A stretch of DNA of 64,000 bases from Microbacter sp. GSS18 (lineage in GTDB: Bacteria; Actinomycetota; Actinomycetes; Actinomycetales; Microbacteriaceae), in contig CP119753.1 of the NCBI GenBank assembly GCA_029319145.1, positions 1,860,001 through 1,924,000 of the forward strand. Direction: 5' to 3'. Below the pieces are notes generated by a model. That model was not told the origin of the DNA. It did not search any database and was given only the letters and a program-made list of their open reading frames with translations. Numbering within the stretch: position 1 is the stretch's first letter; each line of letters starts with the position of its first letter. Below, piece after piece: positions 22,983 through 46,188 of this stretch. Made by a program: the position numbers and the translations under genes.

Positions 22983-23003
22983 CACCGGCTCGCGGACGAC
23001 CGC

Positions 23004-23049
23004 GCGCGCCGACCGCCTCCGCCGGGGCGCGCCGGCGGTCGCGGCGCGC
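23004..23049. terminator. Hairpin between convergent polymerase genes
   Basis: Inverted repeat with arms at 23004-23017 and 23034-23049 and a 16-base GC-rich loop; the right arm has a two-base bulge. It sits exactly between the stop at 22982 and the minus-strand stop at 23050, so it may end both transcripts. No T-run. Confidence 0.5.
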
Positions 23050-24729: not shown

Positions 24730-24767
24730 CCGGTGCTCCCTTCCGTAGGCCGCCGATGCCGCTGGCC

Positions 24768-24808
24768 ATCTTAACCCGCCGTTCACCCGGAATTCAGCGT
24801 CGTAGGAT
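24768..24808. promoter_or_regulatory. Overlapping divergent promoters
   Basis: On the minus strand TAAGAT (24768-24773) with TGAATT 17 bases upstream (24791-24796) serves the 559-residue gene. On the plus strand TAGGAT (24803-24808) serves the CDP-ribitol synthase gene, with a leader of about 30 bases. The -35 regions overlap, so firing of one would hinder the other. Confidence 0.5.
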
Positions 24809-24843
24809 AAGGCGTCCCCTCCCCCACCGAAAGCACCGCAGCC

Positions 24844-28623: not shown

Positions 28624-28659
28624 GGCGATGGTGTCCCGGGCGCAGATCGCCCGGCGCGA

Positions 28660-29817
28660 TCAGGCCACGCGGTCTCCGCGTGGTCGGCGGTCCGCGAACT
28701 CCGAGACGACGGCTCCGGCGAACGCGCCCCAGGTGTTCCGCCCGGCGAACGCGCGGACGCCCCGGCCCAGTTCCGCACACGACTCGCGTGTGGCGGTCCG
28801 CAGCGCGTCCGCGAGCGCGCGGGCGTCTCCCGGAGGAACGAGAATCCCCGTCGACTCGTCGATCACGTCGACCAGGCCGCCGACCCGAGTCGCCAGCACG
28901 GGTGTTCCGTAGTGGAACGCGGCCGACACGACTCCGCTCCCCGTGGCCGAGCGGTACGGCAGGACGACGAGGTCGGCACGAGCGAAGTACTCCGCAGCCT
29001 CGGCGTCGGAGACATACCGGAGCACCGTCTCTGCCCGGAGCGCCGCCGCCCCCTCGCGCCAACGATCCGGTTGGTCCCAGCACTCGCCGACGATGGTGAG
29101 GTGGACCTCGTCGTCGTCCAGGAGTGCCATCGCCTCGAGCAGGACCTCGAGCCCCTTGTACGGCCGGATGAAGCCGAAGAACAGGATCTCCAGCCGTCCG
29201 CGCGGCTCCCGCATCCGCGCCGGCGCCGGAAACCGGTCGTACACCGGATGCGCTCGCGCCATCACCGGGCGGTCGGGCACGATCCGTGTCAATTCGCTCC
29301 GGAGCGCCTCCGCATGGACGATGTAGCCGTCCGCGGAGGACAGCATGAGGCGACTCAAACGGCGTCGGACGCGACCGGCGCCATGATCGCCGAGGTTGTG
29401 GCAGAGGAAGACCGTGCGCACTCCTGCGCGGCGCAGCCGGCGCGCCATGTACGCCGTCCACGGCTGCCAGAACAGAGTCCACCACGCGAACACGACGACA
29501 TCCGGTGCAAGCGCGATCATGCGGTCGACGGTCTTCCGCCACGAGAGCGGGCGGGTGGCGCTCAGGCTGTAGTCGACATCGGGCAGTGGATCGAGGTCGG
29601 GATCGATGTCCGTCTCACCGGGATAGAGGCTCTGCGGATACTGCTTGGCGAACGAGAACACTCTGACCGAGGCGAAGTCGCGCATGGCTGTCGCCAACGA
29701 CTCGGTGTGCTGCGCGATCCCGCCGCGGTACGGTCGCACCGGTCCCACGATGCACACCCGGGGACCGGCGGGATCGGCGGGCATCTCGCCTGCGGCCGGC
29801 ACGATCTCAGAGGCCAT
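28660..29817 (-). CDS. GT4 glycosyltransferase
   Basis: A 385-residue GT-B enzyme. The N-terminal domain opens with RVCIVGPVRPYRGGIAQHTE (the glycine loop), and the C-terminal donor domain has FGFIRPYKGLEVLLEA and a PYRSATGSGVVSAAFHYGTP region in place of the usual E-X7-E motif. A nucleotide-sugar donor and a retaining mechanism are expected. The start ATG 29817 lacks a ribosome site but overlaps the end of a possible 49-codon upstream frame by 11 bases, which could drive its translation. Convergent with ugd, 36 bases apart. Donor and acceptor unknown. Confidence 0.83.
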   Translation of the reverse strand: MASEIVPAAGEMPADPAGPRVCIVGPVRPYRGGIAQHTESLATAMRDFASVRVFSFAKQYPQSLYPGETDIDPDLDPLPDVDYSLSATRPLSWRKTVDRMIALAPDVVVFAWWTLFWQPWTAYMARRLRRAGVRTVFLCHNLGDHGAGRVRRRLSRLMLSSADGYIVHAEALRSELTRIVPDRPVMARAHPVYDRFPAPARMREPRGRLEILFFGFIRPYKGLEVLLEAMALLDDDEVHLTIVGECWDQPDRWREGAAALRAETVLRYVSDAEAAEYFARADLVVLPYRSATGSGVVSAAFHYGTPVLATRVGGLVDVIDESTGILVPPGDARALADALRTATRESCAELGRGVRAFAGRNTWGAFAGAVVSEFADRRPRGDRVA

Positions 29818-29956
29818 GGCGCGCCGGACCCGAACCTCGCGACGTGAGGGCGATCACGCCCAGGGGGATGTCGTGGCCGTGAGATGGCGAGGGGGTCGTG
29901 GGGATGCGCGTGTCGGAGACGGTGCGGTCGCTCGGGGCGACCCGGAACTGCTTCAC
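29807..29956 (-). CDS. Possible leaderless 49-residue upstream ORF
   Basis: A GTG at 29954-29956 opens a 49-codon frame that ends in a TGA overlapping the GT4 start by 11 bases. A TACGCT -10 box (29963-29968) ends exactly six bases before the GTG, the spacing seen at other probably leaderless genes of this window. About 43 of 49 third positions are G or C, as in real genes here, although high GC makes this weak evidence. The peptide has no recognisable domain, no signal and no membrane segment. It may be a leader peptide that couples translation to the glycosyltransferase. The rest of the gap to 30056 shows nothing else. Confidence 0.33.
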   Translation of the reverse strand: MKQFRVAPSDRTVSDTRIPTTPSPSHGHDIPLGVIALTSRGSGPARHGL

Positions 29957-29962
29957 CTTTCG

Positions 29963-29968
29963 AGCGTA
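29963..29968 (-). promoter_or_regulatory. -10 element upstream of the GT4 gene
   Basis: TACGCT on the minus strand, six bases before a GTG and about 150 bases before the GT4 ATG. It would start either a leaderless short ORF or a 140-base GT4 leader. Confidence 0.35.
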
Positions 29969-30056
29969 GCCTCCGCGGTGACGGAGCCGACCACGCGACA
30001 GGGCATCGCCGCACCGCTCATGGCCTGCCGTGCGTGACGAGCGGATCCCGGGTCGG

Positions 30057-31181
30057 TCAGGACGGCGCGCGGGCGCCGCCCGGCACGGACACGGCCTCGG
30101 ACCTCGAACGCGGATGCACGTGCGGCGGCTCGTCGGTCGCGGGGTCCAGCTCCGCGGCCGGGGTCGCGTCACGTGAGATCGACAGCGACGGATGCCGCGC
30201 GACGTCCGCTTCCGATACCTCTTTCGGATCGCGGACGCGTTCCGGCGCGTACTGCAGCAGCTTGAGGCGCTCGAGCGCGTCCTCGGTCAGCGTCCGGTTC
30301 GTGTGCAGCATGTCCGACAGGACCAGGAGCGCGACGCTGAGGAGGGACCCGACGAGCAGTGCGCTGCCGAGGATCAGGGACTGGATGTGGTCCCCCGCCG
30401 CACCCACCCACGTGAGCACGAGGAAGCGGCCGAACGGGATCATGGCGCCGATGAAGAACAGCGCGGCCAGCGTCAGGAACACCACGTGCGGCTTGAACAT
30501 GATGTAGCTGCGCATGATGGCCTGGCTCGAGCGGCCCATGTGCTCGAAGATGTTGCGGAACAGCCGCGACTCGCGCGTCTTGGGGTTCGTCTTGATCGGG
30601 ATGCTCGCGATGCGCAGACGCTTGTTGCCCGCCTGGATGATCGTCTCCATGCAGTAGCTGAACTGCGTGACGATGTTGAGGCGGATGAGCGATTCCCGCG
30701 AGTAGGCGCGGAATCCGCTGGCGGCGTCGGGGAGCCTGGTCTCGGCGGCGAAGTTGACCACCGCGCTCCCCACGCGCTGCATCAGACGCTTGAACGGGGA
30801 GAAGTGCTCGACGCTGCGCGTCTGCCGATCGCCGATGACGATGTCCGCATCGCCGCGCAGGATCGGGCTCACGAGATCGCCGATGCGCTCCTGCGGGTAC
30901 TGGTTGTCGCCGTCGGTGTTGACGACGATGTCGGCGCCGTGGGCCATCGCATAGTCGACGCCGTCACGGAAAGACCTGGCCAGACCCATGTTCCGATTGT
31001 GGAAGACGAAGTGGCGCACACCGAGCGCCCGCGCGACCTCGACCGTCCGGTCGGATGAGCCGTCGTCGACGACCAGGATGTGGATCTCGTCGACGCCGGG
31101 GATCTCGGTCGGGATCGTGGCCAGCACCGAGGGCAGGGTCAGCTCTTCGTTCAGGCAGGGGATCTGGATGAACAGGCGCAT
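30057..31181 (-). CDS. GT2 polyprenyl-phosphate glycosyltransferase, DPM1/GtrB-like
   Basis: A 374-residue membrane glycosyltransferase. Residues 1-230 form a GT2 domain with LFIQIPCLNEE, the VVDDGSSDRT strand, VNTDGDNQYP as the metal site and a DAASGFRAYSRE stretch typical of enzymes that load a sugar onto polyprenyl phosphate. Two membrane segments follow at about residues 243-270 and 280-302, then a soluble, poorly conserved tail. Such proteins make lipid-linked monosaccharides used by outside-facing transferases such as the 951-residue protein or the DUF6541-like protein. I take ATG 31181 (GAGAGAG site upstream) over the in-frame start at 31211, which adds only basic residues. Confidence 0.87.
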   Translation of the reverse strand: MRLFIQIPCLNEELTLPSVLATIPTEIPGVDEIHILVVDDGSSDRTVEVARALGVRHFVFHNRNMGLARSFRDGVDYAMAHGADIVVNTDGDNQYPQERIGDLVSPILRGDADIVIGDRQTRSVEHFSPFKRLMQRVGSAVVNFAAETRLPDAASGFRAYSRESLIRLNIVTQFSYCMETIIQAGNKRLRIASIPIKTNPKTRESRLFRNIFEHMGRSSQAIMRSYIMFKPHVVFLTLAALFFIGAMIPFGRFLVLTWVGAAGDHIQSLILGSALLVGSLLSVALLVLSDMLHTNRTLTEDALERLKLLQYAPERVRDPKEVSEADVARHPSLSISRDATPAAELDPATDEPPHVHPRSRSEAVSVPGGARAPS

Positions 31182-31325
31182 GGGCTCTCTCGCTCGGGAC
31201 CGCGGACGCACAACCTTCCTCGGGCACCGAGCGCCAGGTTCACGTGCCCGGGTGCCGTTGAGGGCATGCTACGCAGTCCTCCGGGACCTCGGCAACGACG
31301 GGGACGCGGACCATGTTCACTCCGG

Positions 31326-31331
31326 TAGCCT
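31326..31331 (+). promoter_or_regulatory. Possible -10 element for the GT4 gene at 31.4 kb
   Basis: TAGCCT lies 45 bases before ATG 31377. The 195-base divergent gap 31182-31376 shows no other clear element. Confidence 0.3.
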
Positions 31332-31376
31332 GACCGTGATGGCGAGACGGGCGCCGACCGGCAGATCGGATGACAG

Positions 31377-32579
31377 ATGAGCAGGCGCGACTCCGTTCTC
31401 GTGCTCACGTCGACGTACCCGCGTTGGCGCGGCGACTCCACCAGCCCGTTCGTCAAGGAGCTCACCGAGCAGGTGCAGCGGCGAGGCTACCCCGGGCATC
31501 AGTACGTCCTGGCCCCGCACAGCGCCGGCGCCCCGCGGACCGAGCAGGACGGGGACATCTCGATCACCCGCGTGCAGTACATGGTGCCCGCCTCGGCTCA
31601 GAACGTCTTCTACGACGGAGGCGCGGCCAACAAGTCCCGAGGCGGACTCTTCCTGATCGGCGCGGCGTCGTACATCGTCGCCCTGTTCGCGTGCGCGGTG
31701 TGGAAGATCCTCCGGTATCGCGACATCGGGATCATCCATGCCCACTGGATCGTGCCTCAGGGCCTGGTCGCCGTGGTCGCCGGGTGGCTCCTGCGCCGCA
31801 AGGTTCTCGTGACGGTCCACGGGGGCGACATCTTCACCGCCCGCGGGAAGTGGAGCGCGCGCCTCGCGCGCTTCGTGCTGGCGAAGGCCGACATCGTCGC
31901 CGTGAACAGCACGGTCACCGAGGCGGCCTGCCGCGCTCTGTGCGACCGGGAGTATCTGTTCGCGCCGATGGGCGTCGACATGGACGACTTCGCCTCGGCG
32001 CCCGCCCAAACCGGCGACCGATCGCGGAACATCGTCTTCGCGGGTCGGCTCAGCCCGGAGAAGGGCGTGGAGTTCCTCATCGAGGCGCTGAGGGCGCTCG
32101 ACGCGGAGACCTCGCTCACCATCCTCGGGGACGGTCCGCGCCGGGCGGCGCTGGTCCGGCTTGCGGCGGAGGCCGGAGTCGCGGACCGCGTGAGCTTCGA
32201 GGGCTGGGTGCCGCACGATGCGATGGCGCGGCACCTGCACTCGGCAACGGTCTTCGTGGCGCCGTCCATCACGTTGGCCAACGGCTGGCGAGAAGGCATG
32301 GGCGTGGTCTACCTCGAGGCGATCTTCTGCGGAGTCCCGGTCGTCACGACGCGCAGCACCGGGGCTCGGGACTTCATCGAGGAGGGCGTGACCGGCTACG
32401 TCGTCGAGGAACGCTCGGCGTCGGCGCTGGCGGACGCCGTGTCGAAGGTCTTCCGCGGCGGCACCGATGACGCCCGCATCGCCGCGCACGCCGCGCACCT
32501 TCGCCGCATCTACGGCTGGCCGGCATGCGCCGAGCGCTACGCGTCGGCGTACCGAGATCTGGCGCCCCATCGATCCTGA
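31377..32579 (+). CDS. GT4 glycosyltransferase
   Basis: A 400-residue GT-B retaining transferase. The N-terminal half has VLTSTYPRWRGDSTSPFVKE, and HAHWIVPQGL with TVHGGDIF, a pattern common in exopolysaccharide GT4 enzymes. The C-terminal donor site has FAGRLSPEKGVEFLIEA and the E-X7-E region GMGVVYLEAIFCGVPVV with the usual Glu residues. One amphipathic stretch near residue 95-112 may touch the membrane. Divergent from the DPM1-like gene, and 33 bases before the convergent sulfotransferase. Donor sugar unknown. Confidence 0.86.
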   Translation: MSRRDSVLVLTSTYPRWRGDSTSPFVKELTEQVQRRGYPGHQYVLAPHSAGAPRTEQDGDISITRVQYMVPASAQNVFYDGGAANKSRGGLFLIGAASYIVALFACAVWKILRYRDIGIIHAHWIVPQGLVAVVAGWLLRRKVLVTVHGGDIFTARGKWSARLARFVLAKADIVAVNSTVTEAACRALCDREYLFAPMGVDMDDFASAPAQTGDRSRNIVFAGRLSPEKGVEFLIEALRALDAETSLTILGDGPRRAALVRLAAEAGVADRVSFEGWVPHDAMARHLHSATVFVAPSITLANGWREGMGVVYLEAIFCGVPVVTTRSTGARDFIEEGVTGYVVEERSASALADAVSKVFRGGTDDARIAAHAAHLRRIYGWPACAERYASAYRDLAPHRS

Positions 32580-32612: not shown

Positions 32613-33512
32613 TCAGCGAAGGCGGGAGACGTCCTCGCCGAGAAGCTCCTCGAGGGCTGCCAGACCCGGCGAGAACACGGCTTCGAGCTCGGCGCGGGTC
32701 TGCAGGTCGATCCGCGGCTTGTCGCCCTCGCTCAAGAGCCCGCCGCGAATGCGCCGCACGAGCGGGCGCGGCACGAACCGCAGCCCGGCGCGCGCCAGCG
32801 CATCGTTCGACAGGACCGCGGCGGCCAGGCGATTGCGTGGCTTGGAGTAGGCGTTCTGCGCGGTCGCGGGCTCGTAACCTTCGAGGGGCGCTCGATCGGC
32901 GCCGAGGAAGTCGAGCACCTTCCGCAGCACCGCCGTCGGCTCACGCAGCTCATCGAAGTACAGAACGAGGATCTGGTCCCGCCGGAAGTGGCGGAGGTAC
33001 GCGGACAGCTGCTCCGCGTACATCCCGTGCTCGATGAAGTCGTACGCGGGGTTGGTCGGAACGTCGTCGGAGCGGATGTCGTCGATCGTCGCCGCGAAGC
33101 TCTTCTGCGCCCCCCTTCTGCCGTACAGCAGATAGTGGGAGAACGCCCGGTCGACCGGGTCGCGCAGAATGGCGATCAGCTTCGCCTCCGGAGCCCGCGC
33201 GGCGATCCGCGGGGCGACATCGGGGTCGGCGAGATAGTACGAGCTGGCCTCCCCGCGCCAGCGCGCGCGTGCACCGTCGGTGAACAGGGCGAGGTAGTCG
33301 TCGGGCTCGGTCGTGGTCTGCAGGATCGCGCGCTCGAGGTCGGGCAGATCGAACCCCGAGAAGAAGTGCGGCTCCTTGACGGCGGACATGAACACATCCG
33401 GGTGGCGCATGTCCTGGAGCCACGTGTGCAGCGAGGTCGTGCCGGATCGTGGAGCTCCGAGGATGAACAGGTTCGGCCAGCGCGGATCTCCCTCGTGCTG
33501 TGGCGGCTGCAT
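32613..33512 (-). CDS. Sulfotransferase (carbohydrate type)
   Basis: A 299-residue PAPS-dependent sulfotransferase. The 5'-phosphosulfate loop is LGAPRSGTTSLHTWL (residues 19-32) and the 3'-phosphate site is AILRDPVDRAFSHYLL (114-129), with Arg117 and Ser125 in the expected places; KEPHFF follows the first motif as in heparan/NodH-type carbohydrate sulfotransferases. ATG 33512 has GGAGG nine bases upstream, whereas ATG 33521 has none in reach. With APS kinase, CysDN and CysQ 3-8 kb away it has a local PAPS supply. The likely acceptor is a glycan of this locus; it has no signal peptide or membrane segment, so it acts in the cytosol. Confidence 0.87.
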   Translation of the reverse strand: MQPPQHEGDPRWPNLFILGAPRSGTTSLHTWLQDMRHPDVFMSAVKEPHFFSGFDLPDLERAILQTTTEPDDYLALFTDGARARWRGEASSYYLADPDVAPRIAARAPEAKLIAILRDPVDRAFSHYLLYGRRGAQKSFAATIDDIRSDDVPTNPAYDFIEHGMYAEQLSAYLRHFRRDQILVLYFDELREPTAVLRKVLDFLGADRAPLEGYEPATAQNAYSKPRNRLAAAVLSNDALARAGLRFVPRPLVRRIRGGLLSEGDKPRIDLQTRAELEAVFSPGLAALEELLGEDVSRLR

Positions 33513-33580
33513 CGCGATCATCCTCCGTCTGGCGCTTCCCACCGCCCAGTCTGCCGCACCGGCCGAGGCGGACGCGTCGG

Positions 33581-33586
33581 TACACT
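33581..33586 (+). promoter_or_regulatory. Possible -10 element for the flippase-like gene
   Basis: TACACT lies 72 bases before ATG 33659 in the 146-base divergent gap. No -35 consensus and no strong ribosome site. Confidence 0.27.
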
Positions 33587-33658
33587 GTGACCACCCGCCG
33601 CGTTATCCGCTGCGCCCCGTCCCGCTCCCTCCGCACCGTGAGGACCTGCTGAAGCCAC

Positions 33659-34615
33659 ATGCGCAGTCGACGTCTCCGGACCGCCGTCAGCGCCGTCGTG
33701 GCCGCCGTGCTTCTGGGCGCCATCGCGTGGTACGTGTGGCAGAACTGGAGCCAGTTCAGTGAGATCCGCCTGACGCAGCCGTGGGCGCTGGGCGTTGCGG
33801 GAGTGTTCGTGCTCGCAAACGCCTACGCGATCGGATCCGTCACCCAGGCGGCCATCGCGCCGCACGGCGTGGATCTCGCCCGCAGCGAGCTGTTCGGCCT
33901 GGCGATCCTGACGCGGTTCACGAATCAGTTCCTGCCCAGCTACGTGGGGGCGACCATCCGGGCCACCTACCTCAAGCGGGCCCATGACGTCACCTACGCC
34001 AAGTTCTCCTCCAGCTTCCTGGTGAGCAACATCCTGCAGCTGGTGGTCACCGGCGTCCTGGCGGTGCTCGTCCTGCTGCTCATGGGCAGCGACATCAGCC
34101 TGCTGGGGAGCTTCGTCGTCGCCGGAGTCGCGGTCGCCGTCGTCACCGTCGTCATGGCGTTCTTCCCGGCGAAGCGGCTCGGCGAGCGGCTGGCAGCGAG
34201 CCGTCCGCGCGGCCGCCTGCGACGGCGGGTGGCGGACCGGCTGGCCGACGCGCTGACCGGCTATGCCGTCGTACGCGCAGAGCCGCGGACCTTCACCTCG
34301 TCCCTGCTGTGGATTCTCGTCGCGGTGACGACCAGCAGCGTCGTCTACATCTGCCTCTACGCCTCGCTCGGGCAGGCTCAGGACATCGCCGGCATCGTGT
34401 TCGTCGCGATCGTCGCCGGCTGGGGTGTCGTGCTGTCGCTGACACCGGCGGGCATCGGCGTGCGGGAGGGCATCATGATGATCTCGGCCGGCATCGTGGG
34501 CCTGCCGATCGCACCGACCGTGGTGGTCGCCCTCCTCATGCGCATCGTGACGATCGTCGCGACGGGCCTGCCGAGCCTATACTTCGGGCCCAGGATGATC
34601 CATCGGAAGGACTAG
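33659..34615 (+). CDS. Lysylphosphatidylglycerol synthase TM-domain / AglD-like flippase protein
   Basis: A 318-residue membrane protein with about eight hydrophobic segments and the conserved LTRFTNQFLPSYVGATIRA, then LVSNILQLVVTG and LTPAGIGVREG motifs of the UPF0104/LPG_synthase_TM family. It has only the membrane domain and no C-terminal aminoacyl-transferase, so it is not a lysyl-lipid synthase. Related stand-alone proteins are linked to lipid-sugar translocation. Its place between two sulfotransferase genes suggests a role in moving or handling a lipid-linked, perhaps sulfated, glycan. The start lacks a good ribosome site. Confidence 0.8.
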   Translation: MRSRRLRTAVSAVVAAVLLGAIAWYVWQNWSQFSEIRLTQPWALGVAGVFVLANAYAIGSVTQAAIAPHGVDLARSELFGLAILTRFTNQFLPSYVGATIRATYLKRAHDVTYAKFSSSFLVSNILQLVVTGVLAVLVLLLMGSDISLLGSFVVAGVAVAVVTVVMAFFPAKRLGERLAASRPRGRLRRRVADRLADALTGYAVVRAEPRTFTSSLLWILVAVTTSSVVYICLYASLGQAQDIAGIVFVAIVAGWGVVLSLTPAGIGVREGIMMISAGIVGLPIAPTVVVALLMRIVTIVATGLPSLYFGPRMIHRKD

Positions 34616-34643
34616 ACAGGGATGATCGCGAGGAGGGCACCGG

Positions 34644-35543
34644 ATGCCGAGAGATGAACTCGACTTCGTCGTGATCGGGGCGGCGAAATCCGGGACGACG
34701 AGCCTGTACGCCGCGATCTCGCAGCATCCGGGACTGTTCATCCCGAGCGAGAAGGAGGTGCCGTTCTTCAACGACCCCCGCTGGTACCGGCGAGGGTTCG
34801 ACGCCTACATGCGCACGTACTTCTCGGACGTACCCGACGGTCAGGCGATCGGAACGGTCACGCCGCAGTACATGCTCGACACCTCGGACGGCGCGGTCCG
34901 TCAGACGGCGCTGCGCATGAGCCGGCAGCTTCCGGGGGCACGGCTGGTCGTCATCCTCCGCAACCCCGTCGACCGCGCGTACTCGCACTACAAGATGCGG
35001 GTGCAGCGAGGGTACGAGCAGCGCTCCTTCGACGACGTCGTGGACCAGGCGATCGCGGCGGGCGATGGGCCGCGCGAGGGCGCCGCAGCCGATGAGCACC
35101 GCTACGTGTTCGGCAGCGAGTACGGCAGGATCATCGGCGAGTTCCTGAGGCACTATCCGCGCGAAGCGCTTCTGATCCTCACGACGAAGCAGCTGCGCGA
35201 TGACCCCGTCGCCGTCTCCCAGTCCGTCTTCGCCCACATCGGAGTCGACGACGACTTCGTGCCGGCGGACGCGGACAAGACCCATCGCGAAGGAGGCAGC
35301 GCCCCGAAGGTCCGCGTTCTCACGCCGGGATTCCTCTTCGGGATCCCCGGGGTGCAGTGGGTGTGGCGCAATGCCGTTCCCGCACGGTTCCGCAAGCGCG
35401 TCGAGTACCGTCTCAACCTCTGGAACATCAAGGCCGACGACCTGAGGCTCTCACCCGACGACCAGGCGTACCGTCGGCTCATGGACTACCTCGCCGACGA
35501 TCTCGCCGCACTCGATCGCATCGAGCCGGGCCTGGTGTTCTGA
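34644..35543 (+). CDS. Sulfotransferase (carbohydrate type)
   Basis: A second 299-residue PAPS-dependent sulfotransferase, 28 bases after the flippase-like gene and probably in one operon with it. The 5'-phosphosulfate loop is IGAAKSGTTSLYAAI (about residues 11-25) with KEVPFF after it, and the 3'-phosphate site is VILRNPVDRAYSHYKM (about 109-124). It differs enough from the first sulfotransferase that the two should have different acceptors or positions. No signal peptide. It ends three bases before the convergent APS kinase stop. Confidence 0.88.
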   Translation: MPRDELDFVVIGAAKSGTTSLYAAISQHPGLFIPSEKEVPFFNDPRWYRRGFDAYMRTYFSDVPDGQAIGTVTPQYMLDTSDGAVRQTALRMSRQLPGARLVVILRNPVDRAYSHYKMRVQRGYEQRSFDDVVDQAIAAGDGPREGAAADEHRYVFGSEYGRIIGEFLRHYPREALLILTTKQLRDDPVAVSQSVFAHIGVDDDFVPADADKTHREGGSAPKVRVLTPGFLFGIPGVQWVWRNAVPARFRKRVEYRLNLWNIKADDLRLSPDDQAYRRLMDYLADDLAALDRIEPGLVF

Positions 35544-35546
35544 TCC

Positions 35547-36665
35547 CTACGGCGTCGAGGCGATGACCTCGAGGATGCGGTTCACCGCCTCATCGGGCGG
35601 CACCACGCTCGCATCGATCGTGAGGTCCGCGTCCTCGGGCTCCTCGTAGGGGTCGCTGATGCCGGTGAACTGCGGGATCTCGCCGCGGCGCGCCTTGGCA
35701 TACAGGCCCTTGCGGTCCCGCTGCTCGCACACCTCGAGCGGCGTGGAGATGTGGACGAGGACGAACCGGCCGACGGCTTCGATGCGCTCCCTCATCTCGG
35801 CCCTCATGCCGACGTACGGCGCGATCGGAGCGCACACCGCGATGCCCCCGTGCCGGGCGACGAGGGCCGCCACCCAGCCGATGCGTCGGACGTTCATCTC
35901 GCGGTCCTCACGCGAGAACCCGAGACCCGACGAGAGGATCTGCCGCACCTCGTCGCCGTCCAGCAGGGTGGCCGTGCGGGCGTCGGCGCCCGGCAGCCGC
36001 TCGAACAGGCGCTTCGCGATCGTCGACTTGCCCGAGCCGGACAGTCCCGTCAGCAGCAGGACCAGGCCGTCGCCCTGCGCGCGCGGCGTGGTCCAGATCG
36101 TCACGTCGTCCGCGACGAGCGTTCGCGCCACGTGCCGCAGCGCATCGACCCATTCGTGCGCCGTCCGCGCGGTCTCGTCGGGCGCGGGCAGCACGACGAC
36201 ATCCCGCCCGGTCTGACGGGCCGACGAGACCGCGCGCGCGAGCGCCGCGGTGTCCCCCCGGTCGACCACGACCACGGCGGCGTCGGCGACCGCGTCATGC
36301 CAGCGCTCGTCGTCCACGGGCGGGACCTCGCCGGTCACGACGACCGCGCGGGCGCGCCGCGCGGTCGCGACCGTGGCGCGAAGCTCACGCTGATCACGGT
36401 GACCGAACGGCCGACCCGGCCGCACCGCTCCGATGGCGTGACCGACGGCATCCGTCCCCTCGACCTCGAGACTCGCGACGGCGGTCCCTTCCTCGTCCAC
36501 GAGATCGATCGTGGACCCCGGTTCCGCGGATTCTCCGTCCGGGAGGACCAGACGGGCGGCCGGCCGGTCCGGCCCCTCGTACCGGGGACCCGCGCCCCAG
36601 GCGCCGGCGAGCACGAGCTCCAACTCGTTGCGCTGGGACGTCGACAGCACGACGCTCCTCGACAT
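35547..36665 (-). CDS. cysC: Adenylylsulfate (APS) kinase with N-terminal extension
   Basis: A 372-residue protein that phosphorylates APS to PAPS with ATP. The kinase domain fills residues 200-372: Walker A GLSGSGKST (207-215), LLDGDEVRQ, the LGFSREDREMNVRRIGWVA helix and IPQFTGISDPYEEP before the end. The 200 residues before it resemble a worn ATP-sulfurylase N-terminal (PUA-like) region without the HXXH nucleotide motif, so the sulfurylase step must come from CysDN. Stand-alone APS kinases are about half this length. An AGGA site precedes ATG 36665. It supplies the sulfate donor for the two adjacent sulfotransferases. Confidence 0.92.
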   Translation of the reverse strand: MSRSVVLSTSQRNELELVLAGAWGAGPRYEGPDRPAARLVLPDGESAEPGSTIDLVDEEGTAVASLEVEGTDAVGHAIGAVRPGRPFGHRDQRELRATVATARRARAVVVTGEVPPVDDERWHDAVADAAVVVVDRGDTAALARAVSSARQTGRDVVVLPAPDETARTAHEWVDALRHVARTLVADDVTIWTTPRAQGDGLVLLLTGLSGSGKSTIAKRLFERLPGADARTATLLDGDEVRQILSSGLGFSREDREMNVRRIGWVAALVARHGGIAVCAPIAPYVGMRAEMRERIEAVGRFVLVHISTPLEVCEQRDRKGLYAKARRGEIPQFTGISDPYEEPEDADLTIDASVVPPDEAVNRILEVIASTP

Positions 36666-36773
36666 GCATCCTCCACTCGTGGGTGCGGGCCTCGGTCTCC
36701 CGCCGGTCCTGCGTGGCGCGCTGCCAGCGCGGACACGTCAACCCACGGTACCGGCGCGCGGGACCGCAGGCTG

Positions 36774-37715
36774 TCAGTCCCCCGCGGACTGCGACGCGCG
36801 CATGCGCAGCTCGGCGCGGTGCGTCGCGCGGAGCCCGTGACGCCTGCGTGCGAACGCCCACGCCACCGTGCCGAGGACGAGCGTGGCGACCGCCGCGACG
36901 AGAGTCCACGTGTTGCTCACGCCGAGGAGCTTCAGCCCCGCGACCACCAGCACGATCGCCAGGGCGCGGCGGACGATCCCCCCGGAGATGCGCGACGACA
37001 GCTGCGCGCCGAGGAAGGCGCCGGGGACGCTGCCGATGATGAGAGGCCACACGACCGCCCAGTCGACGTCGCCGTAGAGGAGATGGCCCGCGGCGGCGGC
37101 GATCACCAGCGGAACCGCCTGGACCAGATCCGTGCCCACGAGGCGGTTCGCCGAGAGCACCGGATACAGCGCCATGAGCGCGACGATGATGAGAGACCCC
37201 GAGCCGACCGACGTGAGCCCGACCATGAGTCCCCCGACGACTCCCACGATCACCGTCGGCACGACCCGCACGCGCACGTCGGACTCCGCCTCGCCGCGCG
37301 GCGCGATCTCGCCGCGCGCGATGCGCTGCCGCTCGACGAGCTGCAGATACGCGCGCGCGACCAGGCCGACGGCGGCGACGATCAGCACGACGCCGAGCGC
37401 GGTCTTCACGAACGCGTTCACGCCGGCGATCGGTCCGATCGCGCTGATGATGAGGGCCCCCGAGAACGCCGCCGGCACGGAGCCCACGACGAGCCACAGC
37501 ACGATCCGCCAGTGCACCGTGCCCCGTCGCATGTGGACGATCGAGCCGACCGGCTTCATCGCCGCGCTCGTGATGAGGTCGCTGGAGACCGCGGTCAGCG
37601 GCGGGATGCCGAAGAAGAGCACCAGGACGGGTGTCATCAGCGCACCGCCGCCCATGCCCGTGAGCCCCACCACGACGCCGATGCCCAGTGCGGCGATCGT
37701 CAGTCCCCAGTCCAC
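36774..37715 (-). CDS. TauE/SafE family sulfite or sulfur-compound permease
   Basis: A 313-residue membrane protein with eight hydrophobic segments and the two family repeats, GVVVGLTGMGGGALMTPVL near the N-terminus and GGLMVGLTSVGSGSLIIVAL in the second half. Members export or import sulfite, sulfonates and similar anions. Setting among PAPS and sulfotransferase genes suggests sulfate/sulfite handling. I use GTG 37715, which has GGGAAGG six bases upstream; an in-frame TTG at 37754 would overlap the putative control region. Separated from cysC by 108 bases without a recognisable gene. Confidence 0.88.
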   Translation of the reverse strand: MDWGLTIAALGIGVVVGLTGMGGGALMTPVLVLFFGIPPLTAVSSDLITSAAMKPVGSIVHMRRGTVHWRIVLWLVVGSVPAAFSGALIISAIGPIAGVNAFVKTALGVVLIVAAVGLVARAYLQLVERQRIARGEIAPRGEAESDVRVRVVPTVIVGVVGGLMVGLTSVGSGSLIIVALMALYPVLSANRLVGTDLVQAVPLVIAAAAGHLLYGDVDWAVVWPLIIGSVPGAFLGAQLSSRISGGIVRRALAIVLVVAGLKLLGVSNTWTLVAAVATLVLGTVAWAFARRRHGLRATHRAELRMRASQSAGD

Positions 37716-37736
37716 GCGAGCCTTCCCGATAATCCC

Positions 37737-37757
37737 GACCGATTTAGTCAGCAATTA
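37737..37757 (-). promoter_or_regulatory. Possible Rrf2-type operator and promoter of the permease gene
   Basis: A dyad GAC-N7-GTC (37737-37749) lies just downstream of a TAATTG -10-like box (minus strand, 37752-37757), in an AT-rich patch 22 bases before the permease start and next to an Rrf2 regulator gene. This is where a repressor site would be expected. Confidence 0.35.
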
Positions 37758-37799
37758 TGCACGGCGCGGTCCGGCGAGGCCAGAGGCCGTCACCTTTCG

Positions 37800-38261
37800 T
37801 TACGTCGGGTTCGCCCAGGCGCTGTCGTCGGCGGCGAGTTCGGCCACGTGGGGCGGCAGCTTCCCGGTGGCGACATCGGCGATGGAGGTCTCGTCCAGGA
37901 CCTTGCGGACGTTCGCGCGCAGCGCGACCCAGAGCCGGACGAGGGACGGCGCCTGCTCGCGATCATCGAGCTCCGAGGGTCGCGCGTCACGGACGTACAC
38001 GAGAGGTCCGTCGACGGCGCGGATGACGTCGGCGACGCTGACGAGATCCGGGTGGCGCGCCAGGCGATAGCCGCCGCCCGCTCCGCGCCGGCTCTCGACG
38101 ATCCCCCCGCGGCGGAGATCGACCAGAATCCCCTCCAGGAACGTCGCCGGGATGCCTTCCGCAGCGGCGACCGCCTCGGACGGCAGGAACCCCGCCTCGA
38201 ATCGGTCGGCGAGCACCACGGCCGCCCGCACCGCATAGTCGGCACGGGCGGAGATTCGCAT
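37800..38261 (-). CDS. Rrf2-family transcriptional regulator without cysteines
   Basis: A 153-residue Rrf2 protein. The winged-helix part reads MRISARADYAVRAAVVLA, then IPATFLEGILVDLRRGGIVESRRGAGGGYRLAR, the family's recognition helix and Gly-rich wing. The whole protein contains no Cys, so it cannot bind an iron-sulfur cluster as IscR and NsrR do; it is more like the CymR branch that controls sulfur assimilation by protein contact. The position between the TauE/SafE gene and divergent cysQDN supports control of sulfur genes. I start at ATG 38261 because GATAAT ends seven bases before it, which points to a leaderless message. Confidence 0.9.
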   Translation of the reverse strand: MRISARADYAVRAAVVLADRFEAGFLPSEAVAAAEGIPATFLEGILVDLRRGGIVESRRGAGGGYRLARHPDLVSVADVIRAVDGPLVYVRDARPSELDDREQAPSLVRLWVALRANVRKVLDETSIADVATGKLPPHVAELAADDSAWANPT

Positions 38262-38422
38262 GCCAGCGATTATCCCGCACGTGCGCGGCGGCCTCCGGAG
38301 CCACACGTGTCGTTTTCGCTGTGTGACGCACGCGCGCGGCGCGGCGCAGGCCCACCGCTATCATGGGTGCTCGTCGGCCCGGACACCCGCGGCCGACCCA
38401 CCCGAACAACAGCGGAGGACGC
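38262..38422. promoter_or_regulatory. Divergent control region between rrf2 and cysQDN
   Basis: Minus strand: GATAAT (38269-38274) seven bases before the rrf2 ATG. Plus strand: TATCAT (38359-38364), 58 bases before cysQ, whose GGAGG site is well placed. An 8-base palindrome ACACGTGT (38303-38310) lies between the two. The region is suited to joint control by the Rrf2 protein. Confidence 0.42.
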
Positions 38423-39211
38423 ATGCCCGGGAGTGTCGCAGGTCCGGATGACGCCGGCGTGGCGGTTTCCGTGGCGGGCTCCGCGGCGGCGGTGCTGCTC
38501 GGCATCCGCGCCGAGCACGGGCTCGAAGACGCGCGAGGCCTGAAGTCCGCCGGCGACGCGGGGGCGCAGGCCCATATCGCGTCCCGGCTGGCGGCGGAGC
38601 GCCCCGACGATGCCGTTCTGAGCGAAGAGGCGAAGGACTCCCCCGCCCGGCTCTCGGCCTCGCGGGTGTGGATCGTGGATCCTCTGGACGGCACACGGGA
38701 GTTCTCCGAGGGCCGCGATGACTGGGCGGTGCACGTCGCGCTGTGGGAGTCGGGCGACCTGACCGTCGGCGCGGTGGCGCTCGGCGGTCCGGACGTCGTG
38801 CTGGACAGTGCGAGCGTCTCCCCTCCCCCGGCACGCGGCGACGGACCGCTGCGGATCGCCGTGTCGCGGTCGCGGCCGCCCGCGATCGTCGCCCACGTGG
38901 CGGAGCAGCTGGGCGCGGAGCTCGTGCCGATGGGATCCGCCGGAGTCAAGATCTGCGCGGTGGTCACCGGCGAGGTGGACGCGTACGTCCACGGCGGCGG
39001 ACAGTTCGAGTGGGATTCGGCCGCGCCGGTCGCGGTCGCCCGCGCCGCGGGTCTTCACACGTCGCGGCTGGACGGATCGGACCTCGTGTACAACCGGGCG
39101 GATCCGTACCTGCCGGACCTGGTGGTGTGCCGGCCCGAGCTGGCCGGAGATGTGATGGGTGCGATCGACCGGGCGCGGGTTGCCGTGCCCGACGGAGAGG
39201 GAGTGTTGTGA
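38423..39211 (+). CDS. cysQ: 3'(2'),5'-bisphosphate nucleotidase
   Basis: A 262-residue member of the inositol monophosphatase superfamily. The metal sites are SEEAKDS, WIVDPLDGTREFSEG (about residue 93-107) and the C-terminal WDSAAPVAVARAAG, with GGGQFEWDS before it. CysQ removes PAP, the by-product of sulfotransferases and PAPS reductase, which otherwise inhibits them. I chose ATG 38423 for its GGAGG site five bases away. The stop overlaps the cysD GTG (GTGA), so the three genes cysQ, cysD and cysN form one operon. That operon makes PAPS precursor and clears PAP in one unit. Confidence 0.92.
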   Translation: MPGSVAGPDDAGVAVSVAGSAAAVLLGIRAEHGLEDARGLKSAGDAGAQAHIASRLAAERPDDAVLSEEAKDSPARLSASRVWIVDPLDGTREFSEGRDDWAVHVALWESGDLTVGAVALGGPDVVLDSASVSPPPARGDGPLRIAVSRSRPPAIVAHVAEQLGAELVPMGSAGVKICAVVTGEVDAYVHGGGQFEWDSAAPVAVARAAGLHTSRLDGSDLVYNRADPYLPDLVVCRPELAGDVMGAIDRARVAVPDGEGVL

Positions 39212-40119
39212 CGTCACCGAACAGGTACGCCTTGTCGCAGTTGGAGTTGTTGGAGGCGGAGTCGATCCACATCATCCGTGAGGTGGTGGCGCAGATGGAG
39301 AAGCCGGGGCTGTTGTTCTCGGGTGGGAAGGACTCGATCGTTCTGCTTCATCTGGCGATGAAGGCGTTCTACCCGGCGCCTCTGCCGTTCCCGATCGTGC
39401 ACATCGACACCGGCCACAACTTCCCCGAGGTGATCGAGTTCCGGGACGCGCACGTCGACAAGCATGGGCTGCGGCTGGTGGTCGGGTCGGTGCAGGAGGC
39501 GATCGATGCCGGGCTGGTGCGGGAGGAGCCCAACGGGTCCCGGAACCGGATCCAGACGCCGGTGCTTTTGGACACGGTCGAGCGGCATGGGTTCGACGCG
39601 ATGATGGGCGGCGCCCGCCGTGACGAGGAGAAGGCCCGCGCGAAGGAGCGTGTGTTTTCGTTCCGGGACGAGTTCGGGCAGTGGGATCCGAAGAACCAGC
39701 GTCCCGAGCTGTGGTCCCTCTACAACGGCCGCGTCCACCCGGGTGAGTCGATCCGGGTGTTCCCGTTGTCGAACTGGACCGAGCTGGACATCTGGCAGTA
39801 CATCCACAACTACGACGTCGAAGTCCCCTCGATCTATATCGCGCATGAGCGGGATGTGTTCGAGCGGGCCGGGATGCTGTTCGCCGCGAACGAGTTCTGC
39901 ACCCCGAAGGAGGGTGAGGTCGTGACCACCCGGATGGTCCGGTACCGGACCGTGGGGGATGCGACCCTCACCGCGGCGGTCGCGTCGGAGGCGACGACGA
40001 TCGAGCTGGTGATCGAGGAGATCGCGGCGACCAGGATCACCGAGCGCGGCGCGACCCGCGGGGACGACCGTGTCAGCGAAGCGGCGATGGAAGACCGCAA
40101 GAAGCAGGGATACTTCTAA
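39208..40119 (+). CDS. cysD: Sulfate adenylyltransferase subunit 2
   Basis: A 303-residue CysD, the catalytic PP-loop subunit of ATP sulfurylase, converting sulfate and ATP to APS. The PP-loop LLFSGGKDSIVLLHLA is at residues 35-50; HIDTGHNFPEVIEFRD, GARRDEEKARAKER and LSNWTELDIWQYI follow in the normal order. Length is standard. The start is GTG 39208 with GAGAGGGAG upstream, overlapping cysQ. The first codons are unusually rich in TTG for this genome. It works with CysN, which begins six bases after its stop. Confidence 0.95.
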   Translation: MTSPNRYALSQLELLEAESIHIIREVVAQMEKPGLLFSGGKDSIVLLHLAMKAFYPAPLPFPIVHIDTGHNFPEVIEFRDAHVDKHGLRLVVGSVQEAIDAGLVREEPNGSRNRIQTPVLLDTVERHGFDAMMGGARRDEEKARAKERVFSFRDEFGQWDPKNQRPELWSLYNGRVHPGESIRVFPLSNWTELDIWQYIHNYDVEVPSIYIAHERDVFERAGMLFAANEFCTPKEGEVVTTRMVRYRTVGDATLTAAVASEATTIELVIEEIAATRITERGATRGDDRVSEAAMEDRKKQGYF

Positions 40120-40125
40120 ACACTC

Positions 40126-41373
40126 ATGGATATGTTGCGTTTCGCGACCGCGGGATCGGTCGACGACGGCAAGAGCACCCTCATCGGCCGTCTGCTGTAT
40201 GACTCGAAGTCGATCTTCGAAGACCAGCTCGAATCGGTGGAGGCCACCAGCCGGGACCGGGGAGACGAGTACGTCGACCTGGCCCTGCTCACCGACGGGC
40301 TGCGGGCGGAGCGGGAGCAGGGCATCACGATCGATGTCGCCTACCGGTACTTCGCGACCCCGCGCCGCAAGTTCATCATCGCGGACACCCCCGGCCACGC
40401 CCAGTACACCCGCAACATGGTCACCGGCGCGTCCACCGCCGACCTCGCCATCGTCCTCGTCGACGCCCGCAAAGGCATCCTGGAGCAGTCCCGCCGGCAC
40501 GCGACCATCGCCAGCCTCCTCCGCGTGCCGCATATCGTGCTCGCGGTCAACAAGATGGACCTCGTCGACTGGTCCCAGGACGTGTTCGAGAACATCCGGG
40601 ACGAGTTCTTCGCGTTCGCGTCGAAACTCAACATCACCGACATGACCGCGATCCCCCTCAGCGCGCTGAAGGGCGACAACGTGGTGACCCGGTCCGAGAA
40701 CATGCCCTGGTACGACGGCGGGAACCTGCTGCACCACCTCGAGAACGTCTACATCGCCAGCGACCGGAACCTGCAGGACGTCCGCTTCCCCGTGCAGTAC
40801 GTCATCCGCCCCCAGCAATCCAAGCATCGCGACTACCGCGGCTACGCCGGACAAGTCGCCTCCGGGGTCCTCAAGCCCGGCGACGACGTCCTCGTCCTCC
40901 CCAGCGGCCTCACCTCCACGATCGCGTCGATCGACACCGCCGACGGACCCGTCGACGAAGCGTTCCCACCCATGTCGGTGACCATCCGCCTCACCGACGA
41001 GATCGACATCTCCCGCGGAGACGTGATCTGCCGGCCCCAGAACAAACCCGAGATCACCCAGGACATCGACGCGATGATCTGCTGGATGGACGAACACCCC
41101 CTCCGGGTCGGACAGAAACTCTCCATCCTCCACACCACCCGCGCAGCCCGCACCATCGTCAAGAACATCCACTACCAGCTCGACGTCAACACCCTCCACC
41201 GCGCAGAAGGCGAACACACCCTGGGCCTGAACGAGATCGGCCGCGTCACCCTCCGCACCACCACACCCCTCGTCGCAGACCCCTACTCACGCAACCGCAC
41301 CACCGGCAGCTTCGTCCTCATCGACGAAGCCACCAACCACACCGTCGCCGCCGGCACCATCACCGACAACTGA
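40126..41373 (+). CDS. cysN: Sulfate adenylyltransferase subunit 1 (GTPase)
   Basis: A 415-residue EF-Tu-like GTPase that drives the CysD reaction by GTP hydrolysis. GTPase motifs are GSVDDGKST (10-18), IADTPGHAQYTRNM and VNKMDLVDW; two beta-barrel domains follow. It ends after the barrels, so there is no fused CysC kinase domain as found in NodQ or mycobacterial CysNC; the kinase is encoded separately on the other strand at 35.5 kb. No CysH, CysI or other reduction gene lies in the window, which favours sulfation, not only cysteine synthesis, as a use of this APS. It ends four bases before the convergent Wzt stop. Confidence 0.95.
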   Translation: MDMLRFATAGSVDDGKSTLIGRLLYDSKSIFEDQLESVEATSRDRGDEYVDLALLTDGLRAEREQGITIDVAYRYFATPRRKFIIADTPGHAQYTRNMVTGASTADLAIVLVDARKGILEQSRRHATIASLLRVPHIVLAVNKMDLVDWSQDVFENIRDEFFAFASKLNITDMTAIPLSALKGDNVVTRSENMPWYDGGNLLHHLENVYIASDRNLQDVRFPVQYVIRPQQSKHRDYRGYAGQVASGVLKPGDDVLVLPSGLTSTIASIDTADGPVDEAFPPMSVTIRLTDEIDISRGDVICRPQNKPEITQDIDAMICWMDEHPLRVGQKLSILHTTRAARTIVKNIHYQLDVNTLHRAEGEHTLGLNEIGRVTLRTTTPLVADPYSRNRTTGSFVLIDEATNHTVAAGTITDN

Positions 41374-41377
41374 CGGG

Positions 41378-42126
41378 TCACTTCGCCGGGGCCGCCCCGG
41401 TGTCGGCGTTGTAGCGCTCGAGCACGTCGCCCAGCGGCGCGTCCATGACGAGACGATGCTCGCGGAGGTAGAGCCCGCGCTTGCAGAAGCGACGCAGGTC
41501 GCGCTCGTTGTGGCTGACGAAGAACAGCGTGCGCCCCTCGGTCAGCAGTTCATCGATGCGCGAGTAGCACTTCTCGCGGAAGGCCTTGTCTCCGACGGCG
41601 AGCACCTCGTCGACGAGCAGGATCGGCTCGTCGAGTTGGGACACGACCGCGAACGCGAGGCGCACCTTCATTCCGCTGGAGAGGTGCTTGTACGGAGTGT
41701 CGACGAAGTCGGCGAGTTCGGCGAAGTCGATGATCCCGTCGAATCGACGGGCGATCTCGGCCTTGGGCATCCCGCGCAGACCGGCCGCGAGCCGCACGTT
41801 CTCTCGCACCGTCAGATCGCCGACGAACCCGCCCGTGATCTCGATGAGGGGTGCGACGCCGCCGTCGATCGTAACCGACCCCTCATCCGGGATCAGCACA
41901 CCGGCGACGAGCTTCAGCAGCGTGGACTTGCCCTGACCGTTGCGCCCGACGACCCCGATCGACTCCCCCGGCTGCACCGAGAAGGACACATCCCGGAGCG
42001 CCCAGAACTCGCCCGGCGGCGTACGCCGCGAGGTCCCGCCGAACAGGTCCTTCACGCTCCGTCGACCCCTCCGGTTGCGCCGGAAGAGGATTCCGAGGTC
42101 GCGCACGTCGATCGCGGCGCTTGTCA

Positions 42127-42127
<1 letters not shown>
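41378..42127 (-). CDS. ABC transporter ATPase for polysaccharide export (Wzt/RfbE-like)
   Basis: A 249-residue ABC ATPase: Walker A GRNGQGKST, the signature HLSSGMKVRLAFAV, Walker B ILLVDEVLAVGD and switch His in VSHN. The polysaccharide subfamily is shown by the APLIEITGGFVGDLTVREN stretch. It stops right after the nucleotide-binding domain, without the C-terminal carbohydrate-binding domain that some Wzt proteins use to recognise a capped glycan. The start ATG 42127 shares its base with the permease stop (ATGA). Beside glf and GlfT2 it matches the mycobacterial Rv3781/Rv3783 galactan exporter. Confidence 0.9.
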
Positions 42128-44276
<2,149 letters not shown>

Positions 44277-44280
44277 TCAC

Positions 44281-46188
44281 GTGCCCTTCCTGCTGCAGAG
44301 CGTCGTCTTCCCCCAGGAGCGGGACCCCGACCTGCTTCCGCTCTACGTGGATCCCGACGCGTGGTCGAAGATCGGCGACGAACAGGTCCGTGTCGCCGAC
44401 CGTGCGGGCCGGGCCGTCGTGCTCGACCGTCGGCGGGTCCGGGTCTCCGCGGGCACGCGCGCGTCCTTCGGCACCTACTTCAACGCCTTCCCCGCGTCGT
44501 ACTGGCAGCACTGGACGGGTGTGCGCCAGGTCACGCTGACCGTCTCGCTCTCCGGCCCCGCCGCGGTGCTGGTCTACCGCTCCAACGGCGACGGGACGAC
44601 GCAGCGCATCGCAGCGCGCGATGTCGGCGGCGAGTCGCATTCGACGTTCCGCCTCGAGCTGGACGGCTACAGCGACGGCGGCTGGATCTGGTTCGACGTC
44701 GTCGCGGGCGAGGAGCCGGCCACCCTCGAGGGCGCCCGCTGGGAGACCGATCAGGCCCCCGAGCGCGACGGCAAGGCGTCGATCGGCATCACGACGTTCA
44801 ACAAGCCGGACTACTGCGTCGAGACGCTGCGGGCACTGGCGCGGTCCGAGGACGTGCGGGACGTGATCGACCGCATCTTCCTCATCGATCAGGGTGACCG
44901 GCCGGTCTCCTCGCAGCCGGGCTTCGACGCCGTCGCCGCGGATCTGGGCGACACGCTGCAGGTGGTCGTGCAGGCGAACCTCGGGGGCTCCGGCGGCTTC
45001 TCCCGGGCCATGGCCGAGTCCCTCGAGCGAGAGGAGACCGCGTTCGTCCAGCTGCTGGACGACGACGTCGAGATCGAGCCCGAGTCGGTGCGCCGGGGAA
45101 TCGTCTTCGCCCGCTACACGACCAAGCCCGCGATCGTCGGCGGCCACATGTTCGACCTGCTCGACCGGCCGCGTCTGCACGCGTTCGCCGAGGTCGTGGA
45201 CGAACTGCCGTTCGCGTGGCGACCGGTGCACGAGGACCGCATGCCCCATGACTTCAGCGTGTCGAACCTCCGCCAGTCCCCCCTGCTGCACCAGCGAATG
45301 GACGCCGACTACAACGGCTGGTGGATGTGCCTCATCCCCACCGAGACGATCCGTGCGGTGGGGCTCGCGATGCCCGCCTTCATCAAGTGGGACGATGCGG
45401 AGTACTGTCTGCGGGCGCGCGAGGCGGGCTTTGCGACGGTGACCCTGCCCGGCGTCGCGCTGTGGCACATCTCGTGGCTCGGCAAGGACGACTTCGTCGA
45501 CTGGCAGGCGTACTTCCACGCACGCAACCGGATCGTCGCCGCCCTCCTGCACTCGTCGGCGCCGCGCGGCGGATCCCTGCTGCGCCACAGCCGCCGCATG
45601 GATCTCAAGCACCTGCTGTCGATGCAGTACTACCCGGTCGCGCTGCGTCATCGCGCGATCCGCGACATCCTCACCGGGCCCGCCCACATGCACCGCACGC
45701 TGCGCACCGTCCTTCCCGACGCGCGCTCTCTCGCCGCCGAGTTCCCCGAGACCGTCCTGCACCGCGAGGCGGGGACCCCCCTGCGTGCCCGCCTGGGCCG
45801 TCAGGTCTCCGAGGGGCGCCGCGGCCGGTCCTCGCTTCCGGGCGGATGGCGGCTGCGCTGGTTCACGCTCAGCTCGCTCGTGCGGCACTGGGTCCGCAAT
45901 CCCGCCCACGCGGACGGGAGCCTGCCCGAGGTCGAGGTGTCCAAGACCGACGCGCAGTGGTGGCGTCTCCCCCGCTATGACAGCGCGATCGTGAGTGCGG
46001 CGAACGGCTCCGGCAAGAACGTGTACGTCCGTGATCGCGCGCGCTACCGCAGCATGCTCGTGGAGAGCGTCCGGCTGCACCGGGCGCTCAGCCGGCGCTG
46101 GCCCGCACTCGCGCGGGAGTACCGCCGGTCCCTCGCGGCGATGACCTCGCCCGGCGCGTGGCAGCGGGAGTTCGACGCCGCGGACTGA
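44281..46188 (+). CDS. glfT2: Galactofuranosyltransferase GlfT2-like polymerase
   Basis: A 635-residue GT2 enzyme, almost the length of mycobacterial GlfT2. The N-terminal 160 residues form the beta-sandwich; the GT-A domain begins at IGITTFNKPD. Active-site residues visible are the DDD at 260-262, the NLGGSGGFSRA loop, Trp347-Trp348, Asp371-Asp372 and His396 (in LWHISWL), in the order and nearly the numbering I recall for the M. tuberculosis enzyme. The C-terminal third is the helical membrane-associated domain. It should build a galactan by adding Galf from UDP-Galf. The start is GTG 44281 with GGAG upstream. Convergent with the DUF6541-like gene. Confidence 0.87.
   Translation: MPFLLQSVVFPQERDPDLLPLYVDPDAWSKIGDEQVRVADRAGRAVVLDRRRVRVSAGTRASFGTYFNAFPASYWQHWTGVRQVTLTVSLSGPAAVLVYRSNGDGTTQRIAARDVGGESHSTFRLELDGYSDGGWIWFDVVAGEEPATLEGARWETDQAPERDGKASIGITTFNKPDYCVETLRALARSEDVRDVIDRIFLIDQGDRPVSSQPGFDAVAADLGDTLQVVVQANLGGSGGFSRAMAESLEREETAFVQLLDDDVEIEPESVRRGIVFARYTTKPAIVGGHMFDLLDRPRLHAFAEVVDELPFAWRPVHEDRMPHDFSVSNLRQSPLLHQRMDADYNGWWMCLIPTETIRAVGLAMPAFIKWDDAEYCLRAREAGFATVTLPGVALWHISWLGKDDFVDWQAYFHARNRIVAALLHSSAPRGGSLLRHSRRMDLKHLLSMQYYPVALRHRAIRDILTGPAHMHRTLRTVLPDARSLAAEFPETVLHREAGTPLRARLGRQVSEGRRGRSSLPGGWRLRWFTLSSLVRHWVRNPAHADGSLPEVEVSKTDAQWWRLPRYDSAIVSAANGSGKNVYVRDRARYRSMLVESVRLHRALSRRWPALAREYRRSLAAMTSPGAWQREFDAAD

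Follow-up and report, generated by a model that had tools for sequence, protein, structure and literature searches.

A probable sulfation module inside a surface-polysaccharide locus of Microbacter sp. GSS18

The described systems closest to the locus analyzed here, a block of nine genes at positions 32613..41373 of a 64,000-nucleotide stretch of the Microbacter sp. GSS18 genome (the window; C1:1860001-1924000 of a single contig of 4.03 Mb), occur in its own family, the Microbacteriaceae, and as far away as Cobetia marina, which belongs to a different phylum. Sulfated cell-wall components have been proposed for a member of the family, Pontimonas salivibrio, from its sulfate-activation genes and its sulfotransferases dependent on 3'-phosphoadenosine 5'-phosphosulfate (PAPS) (PMC6106888). 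The likeness to the window, in family and in the pairing of sulfate activation with sulfotransferases, is one of description. According to that paper, P. salivibrio showed neither a PAPS reductase gene nor one for sulfite reductase, and its wall is thought to be polyrhamnose-based, whereas the GSS18 strain has cysI and cysH elsewhere in its genome and galactofuran and teichoic-type genes in the window. C. marina carries a cluster for a sulfated capsular polysaccharide of reported structure; like the window, it has cysD, cysN/C and cysQ along with sulfotransferases, a sulfate permease and an ABC exporter, but its cysN and cysC are fused and its capsule system is of the kps/wcb kind (PMC11766843). 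The wps-1 glycan cluster of the actinomycete Actinoplanes missouriensis, which is of the Wzx/Wzy type, includes two sulfotransferases that belong to different families, and normal sporangia require both; cysN, APS kinase and PAPS do not appear as terms in the main text of the report, which does not show sulfate (PMC13390465). In Mycobacterium tuberculosis, adenosine 5'-phosphosulfate (APS) is a branch point at which APS kinase, together with CysQ, serves sulfotransferases; there CysN and CysC are fused, the sulfotransferases are Stf enzymes, and the portion of the source at hand mentions no wall-polymer locus (PMC3141025).

We propose that the block in the window is a sulfation module lying inside a surface-polysaccharide locus, a reading in which we place fair confidence. 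The nine genes of the original prediction were recovered as open frames, with labels that agree with Pfam and NCBIfam profiles. The gene for the first sulfotransferase, ST1 (32613..33542, minus strand), points leftward. A gene for a flippase-like membrane protein with about nine transmembrane-like segments (LPG_synthase_TM/TIGR00374; 33659..34615, plus strand; PF03706 91.5 bits; TIGR00374 47.5 bits, cut-off 43.2) and, starting 28 bp past it, the gene for the second sulfotransferase, ST2 (34644..35543, plus strand), point rightward. Three leftward genes follow, encoding an APS kinase (35547..36665, minus strand; profile score 188 bits), a TauE/SafE-family permease that probably takes up sulfate (36774..37754, minus strand; PF01925 157 bits) and an Rrf2-family regulator (37800..38306, minus strand; PF02082 107.5 bits; 83.6 bits against the CymR model, under its cut-off of 195). 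Divergent from the regulator gene, cysQ (38363..39211, plus strand; Inositol_P family, PF00459 109.8 bits), cysD, for the small subunit of ATP sulfurylase (39208..40119, plus strand; TIGR02039 438.5 bits, cut-off 396.6), and cysN, for its GTPase subunit (40126..41373, plus strand; TIGR02034 585 bits, cut-off 336), run rightward. The three had been described as overlapping, which is true of cysQ and cysD, by 4 bp; cysD and cysN are separated by 6 bp. Judged by protein family, the set could make PAPS, use it and, with CysQ as a probable phosphatase, destroy 3'-phosphoadenosine 5'-phosphate (PAP), and sulfation of a surface glycan by the block is likely.

ST1 and ST2 are both probably soluble, and no transmembrane-like segment was found in ST1. 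Both exceed the cut-offs of Sulfotransfer_3 (PF13469, 27 bits) and Sulfotransfer_1 (PF00685, 22 bits), with 58.9 and 48.3 bits for ST1 and 39.9 and 39 bits for ST2. Each contains GA[P/A][R/K]SGTTSL and LR[D/N]PVDRA[F/Y]SHY, which we take to be the PAPS-binding loop and the 3'-phosphate motif. The solved structures nearest to ST1, probably a PAPS-dependent enzyme of the heparan-sulfate kind, are 3rnl, a bacterial sulfotransferase with no stated substrate, and then the heparan sulfate enzymes 3-OST-3 and NDST1; for ST2, sequence and model fold both point to 3rnl and NDST1/3-OST as the nearest. This kinship to heparan-sulfate sulfotransferases suggests, by analogy, that ST1 and ST2 may act on a sugar acceptor. 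Searched across the class, ST2 found matches in 138 of 394 genomes; the best-scoring one outside its own genome is 38% identical, so that no clear orthologue was seen, and a locus search with ST2 alone returned no related loci. At the family level, 5 of 199 genomes (GSS18 included) had a match; the core (APS kinase, TauE permease, Rrf2 regulator and cysQ-cysD-cysN) lies near it in three of the four others and is not there on the 26-kb contig of the fourth (G112; G, C and L numbers are our labels for genomes, contigs and loci). Two further sulfotransferase-family genes occur elsewhere in the GSS18 genome (L155 9085-10365 and L156 9196-10050), one near a signal-peptidase-like gene and one weak; the larger has a counterpart 53% identical in the relative G874. 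Two uses of PAPS may thus be too low a count.

The neighbors on both sides are those of a surface-polymer locus, and the block does lie, as originally placed, between teichoic-acid and galactan genes. On the right, a wzt-like ABC exporter ATPase (41378..42130, minus strand; PF00005), which adjoins cysN in G874 as well, is followed by a wzm-like ABC exporter permease (42127..42966, minus strand; PF01061), the UDP-galactopyranose mutase gene glf (42945..44081, minus strand; PF03275 273 bits) and a GlfT2-like galactofuranosyltransferase gene (43978..46188 as the scanned frame, plus strand; PF19320 133 bits, PF17994 115 bits), whose true start probably lies past the end of glf at 44081. On the left, teichoic-acid-type genes (20637..26238) encode two Glyphos_transf proteins of the CDP-glycerol glycerophosphotransferase type (PF04464 353.5 and 38 bits) and an IspD-SDR fusion (PF01128, PF00106) that is TarIJ-like by domain make-up; a UDP-glucose/GDP-mannose dehydrogenase gene and three glycosyltransferase genes (27313..32579) fill the space between them and ST1. 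PAPS-supply genes, sulfotransferases and an ABC exporter are thus all found within one locus, as in Cobetia.

From gene content, conservation, co-occurrence and fold family, we propose the following activities, substrate, order of steps and regulation. Sulfate would be taken up by the TauE protein and converted to APS by CysDN, and APS kinase would then form PAPS. ST1 and ST2, as soluble enzymes, would sulfate sugar units of the glycan before it leaves the cytosol, CysQ would remove the resulting PAP, and the polymer would be exported by Wzm-Wzt. Adjusting the set to sulfur status is probably the task of the Rrf2 protein. APS would also feed a distant CysH of the APS type together with CysI, giving the module two outlets.

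The pairing of the supply genes with sulfotransferases is borne out across the genus. Among 295 genomes surveyed, 59 had an APS-kinase match, of which 44 were only weak (E above 1e-5) and were dropped; the 15 that remain were counted at E<1e-50. Sulfotransfer_3 proteins occur in 10 genomes and both in nine, a co-occurrence with a Fisher p of 1.2e-12, ignoring relatedness; the one sulfotransferase genome lacking APS kinase, G700, is 83% complete. In seven of the nine (GSS18, G741, G785, G625, G631, G738 and G818; gene starts in relatives are rough), no more than about 15 kb separates a sulfotransferase gene from that for APS kinase, and G816 has two sulfotransferase genes on the contig that carries cysND, at a distance of a few kb. 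A sulfotransferase gene directly follows cysN in five genomes of four genera, two from this genus (G785, G741) and three from other genera (G091, G076, G028), so the linkage of core and sulfotransferases extends beyond GSS18. CysH and CysI are both present in 12 of the 15 APS-kinase genomes. The other three (G818, G785 and G625), drafts rated 100% complete, pair the module with sulfotransferases and show no CysH or CysI match; CysI is also unmatched in G076, and in G091 no CysI match scores above 28 bits. These genomes point to a role for the module outside sulfate reduction. A scan of 30 hand-chosen proteins near the cores of some relatives turned up transporters of the polysaccharide-flippase type, glycosyltransferases, pyruvyl transferases and rhamnose genes. 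APH-family (phosphotransferase) proteins adjoin the sulfotransferases of G785 (L124 4393-5313) and G631 (L126 3172-4101), and a Stf0-type sulfotransferase gene (L146 11533-12426) stands beside two ST1-type genes in G738.

The core itself recurs in other actinobacteria, where the TauE permease gene adjoins it, and because its genes stay together in relatives the block is not a chance assembly. Among the best 80 of 555 confirmed TauE loci, some of them short, which belong to actinobacteria apart from a few Gemmatimonadales-labelled records, 27 contain the full set of APS kinase, CysQ, CysD and CysN, 16 contain a sulfotransferase of the ST1/ST2 type, and six contain both. CysH or CysI beside the block in relatives had been named as a finding that would speak against the prediction; none of these 80 loci contains either. 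Seven Demequina records (L209, L215, L221, L222, L227, L231 and L244) keep the whole core, five of them with no such sulfotransferase in the locus.

Several observations weigh against sulfation as the duty of the block. No such sulfotransferase is present in 21 of the 27 full-core TauE loci, and six APS-kinase genomes of the genus (G224, G732, G164, G790, G768 and G685) have CysH and CysI and no match to Sulfotransfer_3 or Sulfotransfer_1, the two families searched, so that the module alone is no proof of sulfation. CysQ carries the weakest specific label, scoring 104.5 bits with TIGR01331, under the curated cut-off of 228.8. The sulfotransferases are also diverse: in a tree of 26 of them, 13 of 23 inner branches are left open, and ST1 and ST2 fall outside a supported clade that joins G785, G091, G076 and G028 with G625. 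In G874, the gene order from glf to a MIP-family gene is kept over about 30 kb (C1:1773343-1802612), with the core, Rrf2 included by tblastn, between wzt-wzm-glf and the UDP-sugar dehydrogenase gene as in the window; an IS481-type transposase gene (L115 10662-11633) stands there in place of ST1, the flippase gene and ST2. These three genes and two of the glycosyltransferase genes have no match in the G874 stretch, and the only Sulfotransfer_3 gene of that genome is 300 kb from the core. For the third glycosyltransferase gene (GT2, window 30057-31211), an 82% match lies elsewhere in the G874 locus; a GlfT2-type gene is present in a different position, and no match to the teichoic-type genes was found in the stretch searched. 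Loss of the cassette in G874 or its gain in GSS18 would explain this equally well; base composition gives no clear sign of foreign origin for the genes from ST1 to ST2 (G+C 0.666-0.688, against 0.649-0.737 for the other genes listed). The G874 locus and the tree fit a supply core that stays constant while its sulfotransferases change. We put forward, tentatively and as less than an even chance, that in Microbacterium a constant PAPS-supply core works with exchangeable sulfotransferase cassettes to give strain-specific sulfated wall polymers, here either a polymer with galactofuran or one of ribitol phosphate, which Wzm-Wzt would export.

Two other explanations of the block deserve consideration. 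The cys genes might be mainly an assimilatory activation set that has fallen into the locus, with sulfation secondary or absent, CysDN feeding CysH and CysI, and APS kinase and CysQ keeping PAPS in balance. The six relatives with the module, CysH and CysI and no detected sulfotransferase favor this, and so does the genome of GSS18 itself. Genome searches (PAPS_reduct and CysI) place neither CysH nor CysI in the window, as predicted; cysI-cysH lies about 1 Mb away (C1:2946495-2948968; CysH is the second PAPS_reduct match in the genome, C1:2948402-2948893), in a run of cysI, cysH, a tetrapyrrole methylase gene and a pyridine nucleotide oxidoreductase gene that has no cysDN (L003 6496-12118; C1:2940000-2958000). 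Two family searches turned up no ATP sulfurylase in the genome besides the window cysDN, and Sat (PF01747) was found in none of 58 genomes, GSS18 included. The window cysDN must therefore also feed cysteine synthesis: the activities predicted for the set stand by family and co-occurrence, whereas its description as purely a set for sulfation does not. Still, the CysH has CC-x81-CxxC, which we take to be a mark of APS-type reductases, so that reduction would not call for APS kinase; APS kinase is found in this genome only in the block, apart from one marginal match. The three complete-rated genomes with module and sulfotransferases and no CysH or CysI match also argue against a mainly assimilatory set, as do two classes of CysD. 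CysD is present in 25 of 58 relatives (GSS18 included); among the 14 of these loci fetched for inspection, all ten with a CysD 60-64% identical to that of the window are cysI-cysH-cysD-cysN runs with no APS kinase match. The four with a CysD 70-79% identical (G224, G239, G235 and G246) are without cysIH, and all have cysQ and three APS kinase, the one without it being a 4-kb contig. The block, in which neither cysI nor cysH adjoins cysDN, resembles the latter. We consider a mainly assimilatory role unlikely. As a separate observation, cysDN lies between cysH and the methylase gene in the ten assimilatory loci, unlike in the cysI-cysH run of GSS18.

ST1 and ST2 might instead sulfate a glycolipid or a lipid-linked precursor that is moved by the flippase-like protein, not a Wzm-Wzt polymer. 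The LPG_synthase_TM gene lies 28 bp before ST2 and is divergent from ST1, and mycobacteria provide a precedent in their sulfated glycolipids, cited in the original prediction, and in the sulfotransferases described in the accessible part of one source (PMC3141025). At E 0.001, however, neither ST1 nor ST2 matches PF09037, the Stf0 family, and the neighbors are polymer genes, and we judge a lipid-type acceptor quite improbable. We favor the reading of a sulfation module for a surface polysaccharide, which in GSS18 shares its ATP sulfurylase with cysteine synthesis.

The modification had been put forward as perhaps undescribed in the family. A literature search for sulfated wall polymers in Microbacteriaceae, or with galactofuran or teichoic acid, returned no direct report among the matches listed, most subscription papers being outside its reach; wall sulfation as such is already a proposal for P. 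salivibrio (PMC6106888). What the relatives add is that the pairing of activation genes with sulfotransferases is real. According to one review, sulphate is present in an exopolysaccharide made by Microbacterium aurantiacum FSW-25; the passage seen of another calls it acidic and does not name sulphate. If our proposal is true, the wall polymer would owe to sulfate a fixed negative charge that does not depend on phosphate, and the pattern suggests a single sulfurylase that works for a surface polymer as well as for cysteine synthesis. The module is rare in the genus and strongly tied to sulfotransferases, which points to Microbacterium sp. GCS4 and RU33B and M. schleiferi FXH-192, with no cysH or cysI match, for wall-sulfation chemistry.

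A last observation concerns the APS kinase of the block, whose N-terminal region of about 195 residues looks, in the model, like the corresponding part of ATP sulfurylase-APS kinase-like chains and may be a shortened ATP-sulfurylase-like part.

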